Shown here piece by piece: positions 25,058 to 27,170 of a DNA stretch of 64,000 nt. The translations under genes were made by a program, and so were the position numbers. The notes under the pieces are model-generated. The model saw only the letters and a program-made list of their open reading frames with translations, searched no databases and had not been told where the DNA came from. Each line of letters opens with the position of its first letter. Position 1 is the stretch's first letter. The stretch comes from Opitutus terrae PB90-1 (lineage in GTDB: Bacteria > Verrucomicrobiota > Verrucomicrobiia > Opitutales > Opitutaceae), in assembly GCF_000019965.1 (NCBI RefSeq), contig NC_010571.1, positions 5,403,001-5,467,000 on the forward strand, in the 5' to 3' direction.

Positions 25058-25147
25058 GCATCTGTCTCGCCGTAGTCGCGCGCTCGCCCACCTCCGCAAT
25101 TTCGTCGCCGTCAGATTCTTTGTCCGCTTTCTGATTCGGCGGCAGCC

Positions 25148-26371
25148 ATGGAGACGAAACCCACCATGAACGACGACGACGCCCTGCTTCGCTCCCACGT
25201 CGAACATCGGTCCGAACAGGCCTTCACGGAACTCGTCCAGCGCCACATCGGACTCGTCTACGCCACCGCGCTGCGCCAGCTCGGCCAGGACACGCATCTG
25301 GCCGAGGACGTCACGCAAAGCGTGTTCACCGATCTCGCCCGCAAAGCCGCCGGATTGTGCGGCCACGCCACGGTCGCCGGTTGGCTCTACGTCAGCACGC
25401 GCAAAGCTGCCGCCGCGGTCGTCCGGCGCGAGCAGCGGCGCAAGCGTCGCGAACAGGTCGCCCACTCCATGCACCTCACCGATTCGCCCGATGCGCCCAA
25501 CGCCGATTTCGCCCGGCTCCGCTCGGTGCTCGACGATGCGCTCGTCGAACTGAAGCCCGATGAGCAGGAAGCGATCGTCCTGCGCTTCTTCGAAAAACAC
25601 ACGCTCGCCGAGGTCGGCGCCGTCCTGCGCGTCACCGAGGAAGCCGCCCGCAAGCGCGTGGACCGCGCTCTGGAAAAACTGCACGGTGTGCTGACGCGCC
25701 GCGGCATCACGTCCACCAGCGTTGCCCTCGGCGCTGCGCTGTCGCAAGCCGGTGCCGCCAGCGTGCCCGCCGGGCTCGCCGCCAAGGTCGCCGGCGTCGC
25801 CGTGGCGCAGGTCGGCGCCGCCAGCGCCTTCAGCTTCGCCTCGCTCGCCGCGACCTTGATCCCTCCCACCGCTGCCGCGCTGGTGGGCGCGCTCGGGCTG
25901 ATTCCGCAGCACCGGACCAATCACGCAGCGGCCGCCGAACTCGCCGAGCTCACCGCCGCGAATTCGGCTCTGCCCGCGCTGCGCACGGAGGTCACACAAC
26001 TCGCCCGCACGCTCGCCGACGCCCGTGAACTCGAGCGGGCAGCCGCCGAGCTGCCCGACCTGCGCGCCACTCTGGCGGCCTTGCCTCCGCCGCCGCCGCT
26101 CGTCACGACGAGCAACGCCGTCACGATCACGCCGCAGGGCACGATCTCCTGGGAGGGCGAACACATCACGCTCGACCACTTCGAGTCCAATCTCACCGCG
26201 CTTCATCTCGCCGCGAGCAACGGTGAATCCAAGCTGCTGATCCACGCGCGCGGAGTGCAATATCCCCAGATGATCTACGCCCTCGACGAGGCCCGGAAGG
26301 CCGGCGTCCGGCACATCGTGGTCGACAGCGACGCGATGCCCGACCCGAAATTCCCCTTCAGCTGGTTCTAG
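25148..26371 (+). CDS. Membrane-anchored ECF-type sigma factor with ExbD/TolR-like C-terminal domain
   Basis: 407 residues. Sigma region 2 is at about 12-95 (HRSEQAFTELVQRHIGLVYATALRQLG, LAEDVTQSVFTDLARK, GWLYVSTRKAAA). Sigma region 4 is at 125-180 (LKPDEQEAIVLRFFEKHTLAEVGAVL, EEAARKRVDRALEKL). An Ala-rich stretch with a likely membrane segment spans about 195-252, then a coiled coil (258-312) and a Pro run. The last 80 residues (VTITPQGTISWEGEHITLDH, LLIHARGVQYPQMIYALDEA, VRHIVVDS) resemble the periplasmic ExbD/TolR fold. Alternative start MNDDD at 25166. No classical anti-sigma gene is adjacent; the next gene starts 10 bases later. The ExbD comparison is my reading by eye. Confidence 0.8.
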   Translation: METKPTMNDDDALLRSHVEHRSEQAFTELVQRHIGLVYATALRQLGQDTHLAEDVTQSVFTDLARKAAGLCGHATVAGWLYVSTRKAAAAVVRREQRRKRREQVAHSMHLTDSPDAPNADFARLRSVLDDALVELKPDEQEAIVLRFFEKHTLAEVGAVLRVTEEAARKRVDRALEKLHGVLTRRGITSTSVALGAALSQAGAASVPAGLAAKVAGVAVAQVGAASAFSFASLAATLIPPTAAALVGALGLIPQHRTNHAAAAELAELTAANSALPALRTEVTQLARTLADARELERAAAELPDLRATLAALPPPPPLVTTSNAVTITPQGTISWEGEHITLDHFESNLTALHLAASNGESKLLIHARGVQYPQMIYALDEARKAGVRHIVVDSDAMPDPKFPFSWF

Positions 26372-26381
26372 ACGAGACCCC

Positions 26382-27170
26382 ATGCGCACCAGCATTCTTC
26401 TTTCCCTCGTGATCGTTCTCGGCGCCGCGACCGGCCAGGTCCTGTTGCGCGCCCGCGCCATGCGCTTGGACGCCGAACTCGCATTGGCGCGTTCTGACCA
26501 ACGCGAACACTCACGTTTGGCGGCCGAGCGGAATCGGCTTCGCGCCGCGCAACTCCCGCCCGCCCGCTATAACGAACTCCAACGCCTGCTGGCGGAACAT
26601 ACGCAGCTGAGCGGCGAGATCGCCGCCCGGAAGCAGCCCGCGCTACCCGCCCCGCTGTCCCCAGGCGAATGGACGCCGTGCAGCGCCTGGGCCAACCGTG
26701 GCCGGGCCACTCCGCACGCAGCGGTGGAGACCGCGTTGTGGGCGGCCGCGGGCGGCGACCTCGCGACATTCGAAGCCACGCTCGAACTCGATGAATCCGC
26801 CCGCGCGCCAGCCCAGGATCTTCTGGCGCGATTGCCCGCTTCGGTCCGCAGCACCTATCCCACGCCCGAAGCCCTCGTCGCCAGCGTCACGATGAAGAAC
26901 ATCCCGCTGGCCGAGGCTCAGATCGTGTGGTCTCACGAACCGGACAGCGATCGAGCGGCCATCGGCGTGTTGCTCCACCATCCCGAAGGTGCGCAGGCCA
27001 AGCCGGATCCGAACGTCTCGGGCAGCAGCCCACCACCCGCCCTGGCCGACAATCCTCGGCTGAGCCTGGCGACGCTCATGCTGCACCGCTCCGCCTCCGG
27101 CTGGCGATTGGTTGTCCCTGCGAGCGCAATCGAACGCATGGCGCGCGAGTTGACCGCTCCGCCTCCCTAG
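26382..27170 (+). CDS. Membrane-anchored coiled-coil protein, partner of the sigma factor
   Basis: 262 residues, 10 bases after the sigma factor gene, surely co-transcribed. There is an N-terminal membrane anchor (MRTSILLSLVIVLGAATGQVLL), then a coiled coil (about 25-75, LRARAMRLDAELALARSDQRE, NELQRLLAEHTQLSGEIAAR). A globular region with a TPHAAVETALWAAAGGDLATFEATLELDE motif follows from about 110, and a final strand-rich part (LATLMLHRSASGWRLVVPAS). I do not recognise a named family. Position and anchoring suggest it works with the membrane sigma factor, perhaps as its periplasmic sensor. Confidence 0.7.
   Translation: MRTSILLSLVIVLGAATGQVLLRARAMRLDAELALARSDQREHSRLAAERNRLRAAQLPPARYNELQRLLAEHTQLSGEIAARKQPALPAPLSPGEWTPCSAWANRGRATPHAAVETALWAAAGGDLATFEATLELDESARAPAQDLLARLPASVRSTYPTPEALVASVTMKNIPLAEAQIVWSHEPDSDRAAIGVLLHHPEGAQAKPDPNVSGSSPPPALADNPRLSLATLMLHRSASGWRLVVPASAIERMARELTAPPP

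Follow-up and report, generated by a model that had tools for sequence, protein, structure and literature searches.

The DNA considered in this study, called the window below, comprises 64,000 nucleotides (bases 5,403,001-5,467,000) of the genome of Opitutus terrae PB90-1, a single contig of 5,957,605 bases. Two open reading frames are present in it, separated by 10 bases: one of 407 codons for a sigma factor (25148-26371) and one of 262 codons for a partner protein (26382-27170), the second lying just where the original prediction had it. The features of the locus are collected in Table 1. The true start of the sigma gene is probably not 25148 but 25166 (M7), since a methionine is kept at the place of M7 in eight of the nine other ExbD-type orthologues and a promoter-like box runs with its 3' end into the ATG at 25148. 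The ATG of orthologue L119 lies two codons earlier than the place of M7.

Table 1. Features of the sigma-partner locus. Positions are those of the window.
Feature	Position	Strand	Basis
Promoter-like box, TTTGTCCGCTTT-N7-GGCGGCAGCCAT	25119..25149	+	No mismatch to the ExbD-type pattern
Probable coding sequence of the membrane ECF sigma factor, ExbD tail included	25166..26371	+	ORF as listed from 25148
Sigma-70 region 2 (residues 29-98 of the 407-residue ORF)	25232..25441	+	PF04542
Sigma-70 region 4 (residues 131-178)	25538..25681	+	PF04545, E 5.9e-13
Hydrophobic segment, probable membrane helix (residues 234-252)	25847..25903	+	Kyte-Doolittle 1.78
Long helix, probable coiled coil (residues 258-311)	25919..26080	+	Model helix 251-311, low-confidence end
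ExbD/TolR-type domain (residues 320-395)	26105..26332	+	Orthologue Pfam, profile, fold, own-genome homology
C-terminal Trp-Phe of the sigma factor	26363..26368	+	Family comparison
Partner with a membrane helix at its N-terminus, a coiled coil and an NTF2-like domain	26382..27170	+	Sequence, model, fold
Partner NTF2-like domain (residues 109-246)	26706..27119	+	Predicted fold

The N-terminal part of the first protein is that of an ECF sigma factor, with regions 2 and 4 only: PF04542, PF04545 and PF08281 all lie above their Pfam cut-offs, no further sigma region is matched, and TIGR02937 scores 79.9 bits against a cut-off of 42.9. Both DNA-binding regions fall within the first 180 residues, as had been claimed from the sequence.

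Beyond region 4, a crossing of the membrane is likely, judging from hydropathy. The best 19-residue segment reaches the Kyte-Doolittle value given in Table 1, and the highest value between residues 186 and 330 ranges from 1.45 to 2.43 over 66 rows of the family, at about the same place in most of them and in the preceding Ala-rich stretch in some (e.g., L008 and L127). The Ala-rich stretch ahead of the segment is likewise hydrophobic in the window protein, and the segment itself has two prolines, an unfavourable crude insertion sum of 3.93 and low-confidence helices (pLDDT below 50) in the AlphaFold model. Several orthologues have clearer hydrophobic segments at the same place. The model as a whole has a mean pLDDT of 65, with the tail mostly at 69-85. 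Site-2 proteases of the M50 family are found in the window genome and also in 14 of 14 control genomes; their presence says little as evidence for regulated proteolysis of the sigma factor.

The resemblance of the C-terminal domain to ExbD and TolR, the central claim of the original prediction, is supported by Pfam matches of the orthologues, by a profile against the PDB, by homology within the genome and by predicted structure. PF02472 run on the window sigma alone matches residues 324-392 at 16.5 bits (E 0.0092), below the cut-off of 25.4, and as a verdict on the tail this single-protein result was overruled by the orthologues and the structure. The same family matches ten of ten orthologues, the window's included, at E up to 0.1 (best 2.9e-10), which makes the assignment firm. 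A profile of the ten tails, searched against PDB sequences, has ExbD chains at the top (8pek at 9e-4, 7ajq at 2.2e-3). The original prediction was to fall if the tail had no structural match to ExbD/TolR, but the model matches both ExbD (8p9r: Z 9.5 over 73 residues, 2.1 Å, model residues 320-394) and TolR (5by4: Z 10.2 over 85 residues, 3.2 Å, in a range, 76-396, that includes some residues outside the tail), and a Foldseek search run on the tail is counted as further evidence for an ExbD/TolR-type domain. By sequence and predicted fold, residues 320-395 are an ExbD/TolR periplasmic domain.

The window sigma is nonetheless not classed as a member of the ExbD family. Its match to PF02472 starts at position 56 of the 128 of the profile; the two ExbD proteins of the Ton operon described below are matched from position 3-4 and have the PLID motif. 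The conserved aspartate of ExbD and TolR has its role in their N-terminal transmembrane helix, and this part is missing from the sigma factor, whose own hydrophobic segment contains no Asp. Nor does the gene adjoin exbB or tolQ: its pair has as direct neighbours a gene for a metallo-beta-lactamase-fold protein and one for an E1 dehydrogenase, and no Ton gene was found adjoining it.

In E. coli, the periplasmic domains of ExbD are reported to form a pair enclosing a single TonB strand (the D-box), which ExbD L132Q loses (PMC10907165). In alignments read by eye, the position of Leu132, required for D-box binding, is V, I or L in nine of the ten sigma tails, and V392 occupies it in the window sigma. 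ExbD in its closed state is described as having its groove occupied by an N-terminal segment, NIBS (PMC10771500). The sigma tail begins, according to the alignment, past the place where NIBS is expected in ExbD proteins, and the groove would therefore be left free.

The second protein had been described as a membrane coiled-coil protein, and the helix and coiled coil stand, but there is more to it than that. In its model (pLDDT 84), an NTF2-like domain comes after a long helix at the N-terminus. Foldseek gives 3k7c as the sole match below 0.001 (E 4.6e-4). In a second structural comparison this entry has a Z score of 8.6 over 100 residues at 3.3 Å, near the middling level of that tool; below it come many NTF2-like and related entries, NTF2-like domains of wall enzymes (PBP5) among them. 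On its predicted fold, the partner belongs to the NTF2-like superfamily. No Pfam family exceeded its cut-off and no NCBIfam model matched at E up to 1, and FecR is absent among the weak matches of ten partners. The first 98 columns of the partner profile match the membrane and coiled-coil part of the TonB-tailed sigma factors introduced below (probability 96.8, E 2e-10, a score that coiled-coil composition may inflate), which suggests that the two proteins have the same orientation and perhaps form a joint coiled coil.

To place the pair among its relatives, genomes of the family Opitutaceae and a sample of the phylum were searched. At least 10 of 252 family genomes encode a full-length ExbD-tailed sigma, meaning one whose match extends as far as query residue 390 or further; among the 387 genomes of the phylum sample, at E up to 1e-50, the tail was covered by the window's match only. 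The partner or its domain was found by profile search in at least 75 of the 252 family genomes and in at least 11 of the 387 of the phylum sample, all of these from the same family. These counts are lower bounds, because few candidates were scored per genome (in the family, 10 for the partner and 7 for the ExbD-sigma; in the phylum, 6 for the partner and 4 for the sigma). The 39 partner loci L070-L108, which include some places more than once, comprise 30 with a frame of the sigma family. No frame matched the sigma profile at L086, L087, L089, L094, L095, L098, L099, L102 and L107, in some cases because the contig ends; at L087 there is a partial frame whose TonB-like tail ends in WF.

The ExbD fusion is one variant of a larger sigma system. 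Eighty-one distinct sigma C-termini were obtained, of which 66 were used for tail typing, the tree, operon matching and independent pairs; the 15 left out are four proteins of fewer than 300 residues (one of them, L085, ends in WF) and 11 frames that have no stop codon within the stretch. The most common tail among the 66 is a TonB C-terminal domain (36, 34 of them with a partner), which occupies the same slot as the ExbD domain of the window. Ten have ExbD, and seven have the partner domain fused to the sigma. Other tails make up the rest: two of these proteins have a partner, one of the two matching TPR weakly, and 11 lack one. The samples were drawn unlike, rows without a partner coming mostly from sigma searches and rows with one from partner searches. 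A Pfam scan of ten relatives found TonB_C in four, at E values from 4.7e-16 to 1.1e-18. In a tree of the sigma part, nine of the ten ExbD-type proteins fall in one supported branch, and all ten as a single clade are unrejected (p-AU 0.815). Tail type calls for 17 label changes on the best tree, only a few of them forced by supported branches, and tails appear to have been exchanged on one sigma chassis. On one family contig, six sigma genes of the family lie within 17 kb and are separated by partner-type stretches (L188, G160:C102:38000-55000).

The nearest source of both common tails was sought within the window genome. The tail of the window sigma has its best match in an ExbB-ExbD-ExbD-TonB operon, in which two ExbD genes stand in tandem (L060:4584-6921, minus strand, at about 3,035,6xx-3,037,9xx of the genome); the first of the two has 35% identity to the tail, at E 5e-14. 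The second ExbD of the operon follows at 8e-5, and the other four ExbD places of the genome gave no match to the tail at E up to 1; one of these four matches at 0.14 in a smaller database. That smaller database has 6 ExbD and 14 TonB_C entries, with the sigma excluded (two of the 14 are views of one repeat region, and a TonB_C ORF near 3,393,2xx is not included). In it, all ten ExbD tails best match this same first ExbD, and 31 of the 36 TonB_C tails best match the TonB of the operon, the other five, with two ties, being closest to another TonB_C protein. Residues 41-49 of the operon TonB read like a D-box flanked by prolines. The TonB-tailed sigma of the window genome itself has 62% identity to the operon TonB over 100 residues (E 7e-41) and at most 43% to the other TonB_C proteins. 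That both tails match one Ton operon is the strongest hint, taken from sequence comparison, that the family reads the Ton system. In the same genome, three neighbouring ORFs at about 1,242,000-1,247,800 of G000:C1 (L219, L224 and L231; 579, 542 and 563 amino acids) have three, four and one matches to PF03544 TonB_C, respectively, and are odd TonB_C-repeat proteins.

A second regularity of the family is a C-terminal Trp-Phe. It ends 36 of the 46 sigma factors that have a separate partner and no fused partner domain, and none of the 20 others (p 7e-10), of which 13 have no partner match and seven a fused partner domain. Five of those seven have a separate partner as well, yet no -WF. Counted by the presence of any separate partner, the figures are 36/51 against 0/15 (p 6e-7); independent pairs number only three, with the same direction in 2.4 of 3 on average and never the opposite. 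By tail, the exact ending is found in 29/34 TonB_C, 5/10 ExbD and 2/2 other proteins; tails that lack a Pfam domain or match TPR weakly also end in this way. In the ExbD-type sigma of L100 the WF stands three residues short of the C-terminus, and four of the ten ExbD-type members have no WF among their six final residues. No -WF ending occurs in the stand-alone ExbDs and TonB of the operon. The ending may mark the C-terminus for recognition by the partner or by a protease. Another family genome encodes a protein with a PDZ match below cut-off and a partner-type domain (L064:5066-6082, minus strand), whose PDZ could bind C-terminal -WF ends.

Upstream of the sigma genes lies a promoter-like box. 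In the ExbD type it reads TGTCCG[C/G]TTT-N8-GCGGCAGCC, with small departures in some, and was counted in 10/10 by eye and 9/10 by regular expression; the box at 25119 is the only such place in the window at up to 3 mismatches. For 57 of 64 sigma genes, a generic family box, TTTGT[G/T/C]CGnTTT-N6-CGGCGG, is found with its first part no more than 75 bases upstream, compared with a mean of 3.2 and a maximum of 8 in 200 Markov-resampled sets, and its distance to the start of the profile match is 38-48 bases in 55 of the 57. The simplest reading of its occurrence before so many of the family's sigma genes is that each sigma probably drives its own gene or operon. In the window genome the sole place without mismatch to the generic pattern is again 25119.

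A regulon beyond the sigma genes did not stand out: at up to 2 mismatches, the box was found at 29 places in ten genomes, compared with 39 for a control pattern. Exact matches to the ExbD-type pattern in the ten genomes number six, five at the sigma gene and one in G287 (L265, G287:C61:46929). The latter is the second exact copy in its genome, and 342 bases downstream of it stands an ORF of 270 amino acids that has no Pfam match. In G160, a place with one mismatch precedes another family sigma. The generic box occurs at 14 places in the window genome, compared with 8 for the control, and five of the 14 are at family sigma genes. One upstream box, like those of TonB-tailed sigma genes with two mismatches, precedes the gene of a secreted-looking protein of 134 amino acids that has little beyond a TonB_C domain (L274:1564-1965, at about 1,355,2xx of the genome); it is possible that this protein is a target and an inhibitor of Ton. 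Neither the box place at 1,355,1xx nor the suggestive one at 5,323,2xx, upstream of a gene that I take for hflX, is claimed as a target. A scan for sigma-70 promoters and terminators found no promoter and one terminator-like site, on the opposite strand and within chance, and PADLOC gave no match.

The surrounding genes were compared with ten queries, of which those for an alpha/beta-hydrolase and for the E1 protein were uninformative. Locus L100 has four further neighbour genes of the window in the same order and L181 has two; no further ones were found at the other ExbD-type loci fetched. The neighbourhood was dropped as a guide to function, since only these two loci kept other neighbours. 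RpiB, AKR and KdsC, as names of neighbour genes, are my own presumptive labels.

Sigma factors tethered to the membrane are already known. IutY of Pseudomonas putida (ECF243) is described as a sigma factor fused to a membrane anti-sigma domain, the tail of which is processed by Prc and RseP, leading to activation (PMC5411451, PMC8999054). Like IutY, the window protein joins an ECF sigma factor and a tail, cytoplasmic and periplasmic in IutY, in one chain (PMC5411451, PMC8999054); unlike it, it has an ExbD tail after a long helix and an NTF2-like partner. Neither a FecR-like nor a zinc anti-sigma domain was found in the window sigma by Pfam at E up to 10, or among the matches listed (25 of 89 for NCBIfam), and an anti-sigma of another type in the tail is possible. 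Actinobacterial ECF48, ECF52 and ECF53 are reported to have C-terminal extensions with membrane helices, for which proteolytic activation is expected (PMC8999054), and the window sigma shares with them a C-terminal extension with a probable membrane helix (PMC8999054). It differs in that no zinc-finger anti-sigma was found, in its phylum and in its presumed Ton-derived head. Because it shares the apparent one-protein tethered plan with IutY but no anti-sigma domain was recognised, I class the protein as a membrane-tethered ECF variant and not in the IutY group.

The partner brings to mind other control units, as the SnoaL_2 domain is NTF2-like. ECF56 sigma factors are reported to carry a SnoaL_2 domain (PMC7730460). 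The window system resembles ECF41 and ECF56 in having an NTF2-like domain in the control unit, but here a separate membrane-anchored protein bears the domain, with 7 of the 66 relatives having it fused behind the hydrophobic segment of the sigma. FecI-FecR-FecA, reported to couple Ton-dependent uptake to an ECF sigma, shares with the window system a link of an ECF sigma to Ton, presumed in the latter (PMC9249621); unlike FecR, the partner has no FecR-like match and its predicted fold is NTF2-like, and the window sigma itself bears what appears to be part of the Ton motor. The tail is like the ExbD/TolR periplasmic domain (PDB 8p9r, 8vgd, 5by4) in fold and sequence and unlike it in standing on a sigma factor without the transmembrane part of ExbD. 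Among the matches listed in a search of the titles and abstract openings of open-access literature, none describes a sigma factor whose head is taken from the Ton motor.

The best explanation I can offer, held tentatively and somewhat short of an even bet, is that the ECF sigma factor is tethered in the membrane, activates itself and bears a head, probably in the periplasm, that was captured as an ExbD domain from the family's own Ton motor. The topology, docking, gating and release would be as follows. The coiled coil would pair two sigma factors, or a sigma with a partner, and the paired ExbD heads would form the groove that in E. coli takes the D-box strand of TonB. The head would tether the sigma at the membrane through TonB or peptidoglycan, and the partner would gate the tethering, probably by contact with the C-terminal -WF. 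A change in Ton engagement or in the state of the envelope would then free the sigma part, by cutting as in IutY or by a change of shape, and the freed sigma would switch on its own operon and other genes. A further proposal, which I consider unlikely, is of a class of motor-reading sigma factors: paired sigmas with copies of the ExbD or TonB of their own Ton system would clasp the TonB D-box or the targets of TonB in the periplasm, engagement or force would lead directly to release of a self-amplifying sigma, and the partner would read the C-terminal Trp-Phe.

Several other readings compete with these. The head, whether ExbD or TonB, might be an anchor on peptidoglycan, so that the sigma would report stress of the envelope or cell wall and not Ton activity. 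TonB domains also bind peptidoglycan, and the partner's fold matches include the NTF2-like domains of PBP5. The peptidoglycan layer is, besides, reported to have an anchoring role in the mechanism of ExbD (PMC10771500). I find this account rather doubtful in the face of the best matches of both tails, which are to a Ton operon and not to a Tol or wall protein. The same matches weigh against the idea that the domain is a generic module for pairing or partner binding that makes no contact with Ton, the partner and -WF being the real sensor: the apparent swapping of tails on one chassis (17 changes, few of them forced) and the -WF endings of tails with no Pfam domain or a weak TPR match speak for it, but it is hard to see why a neutral module should have as its two common forms parts of one machine that best match one operon, and I think it unlikely.

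The weak hydrophobic segment of the window, with its two prolines and a preceding Ala-rich stretch that is hydrophobic too, would fit a chain that does not cross the membrane, or crosses it twice, leaving the tail as a cytoplasmic regulatory domain as in ECF41. This is improbable, given the clearer segments of several orthologues at the same place, the match of the partner's N-terminal helix and coiled coil to this part of the TonB-tailed sigmas, and the periplasmic location of ExbD and TonB domains in known proteins. More improbable still is that the sigma takes the place of an ExbD subunit, with ExbB as its route to sensing the proton-motive force. The tail is indeed an ExbD domain by all appearances, but profile positions 1-55, the transmembrane part of ExbD, are missing and the sigma's segment is without Asp; the earlier suggestion of direct proton-motive sensing in the manner of ExbD is accordingly unsupported, and is disfavoured because that transmembrane part is absent. 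The companion suggestion, that the sigma senses the envelope or the Ton system, is plausible from the sequence comparisons, and is strengthened because related sigma factors carry a TonB domain and both kinds of tail best match one operon.

Under the preferred reading, that of a tethered sigma factor with a head captured from the Ton motor, the family may be seen as a set of switches, and the presence of a different piece of that motor in related proteins suggests that the motor is what the switches listen to. That a single sigma family has, at one and the same slot, two different pieces of one Ton operon is a strong hint at the signal that is heard. If the proposal of a motor-reading class were true, transcription would read the state of the Ton motor without the usual chain of receptor and anti-sigma. 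The promoter-like box is a ready reporter for the activity of the sigma, and the Ton-tailed sigma factors make the sensing of nutrient uptake or of the envelope in these Verrucomicrobia directly testable.
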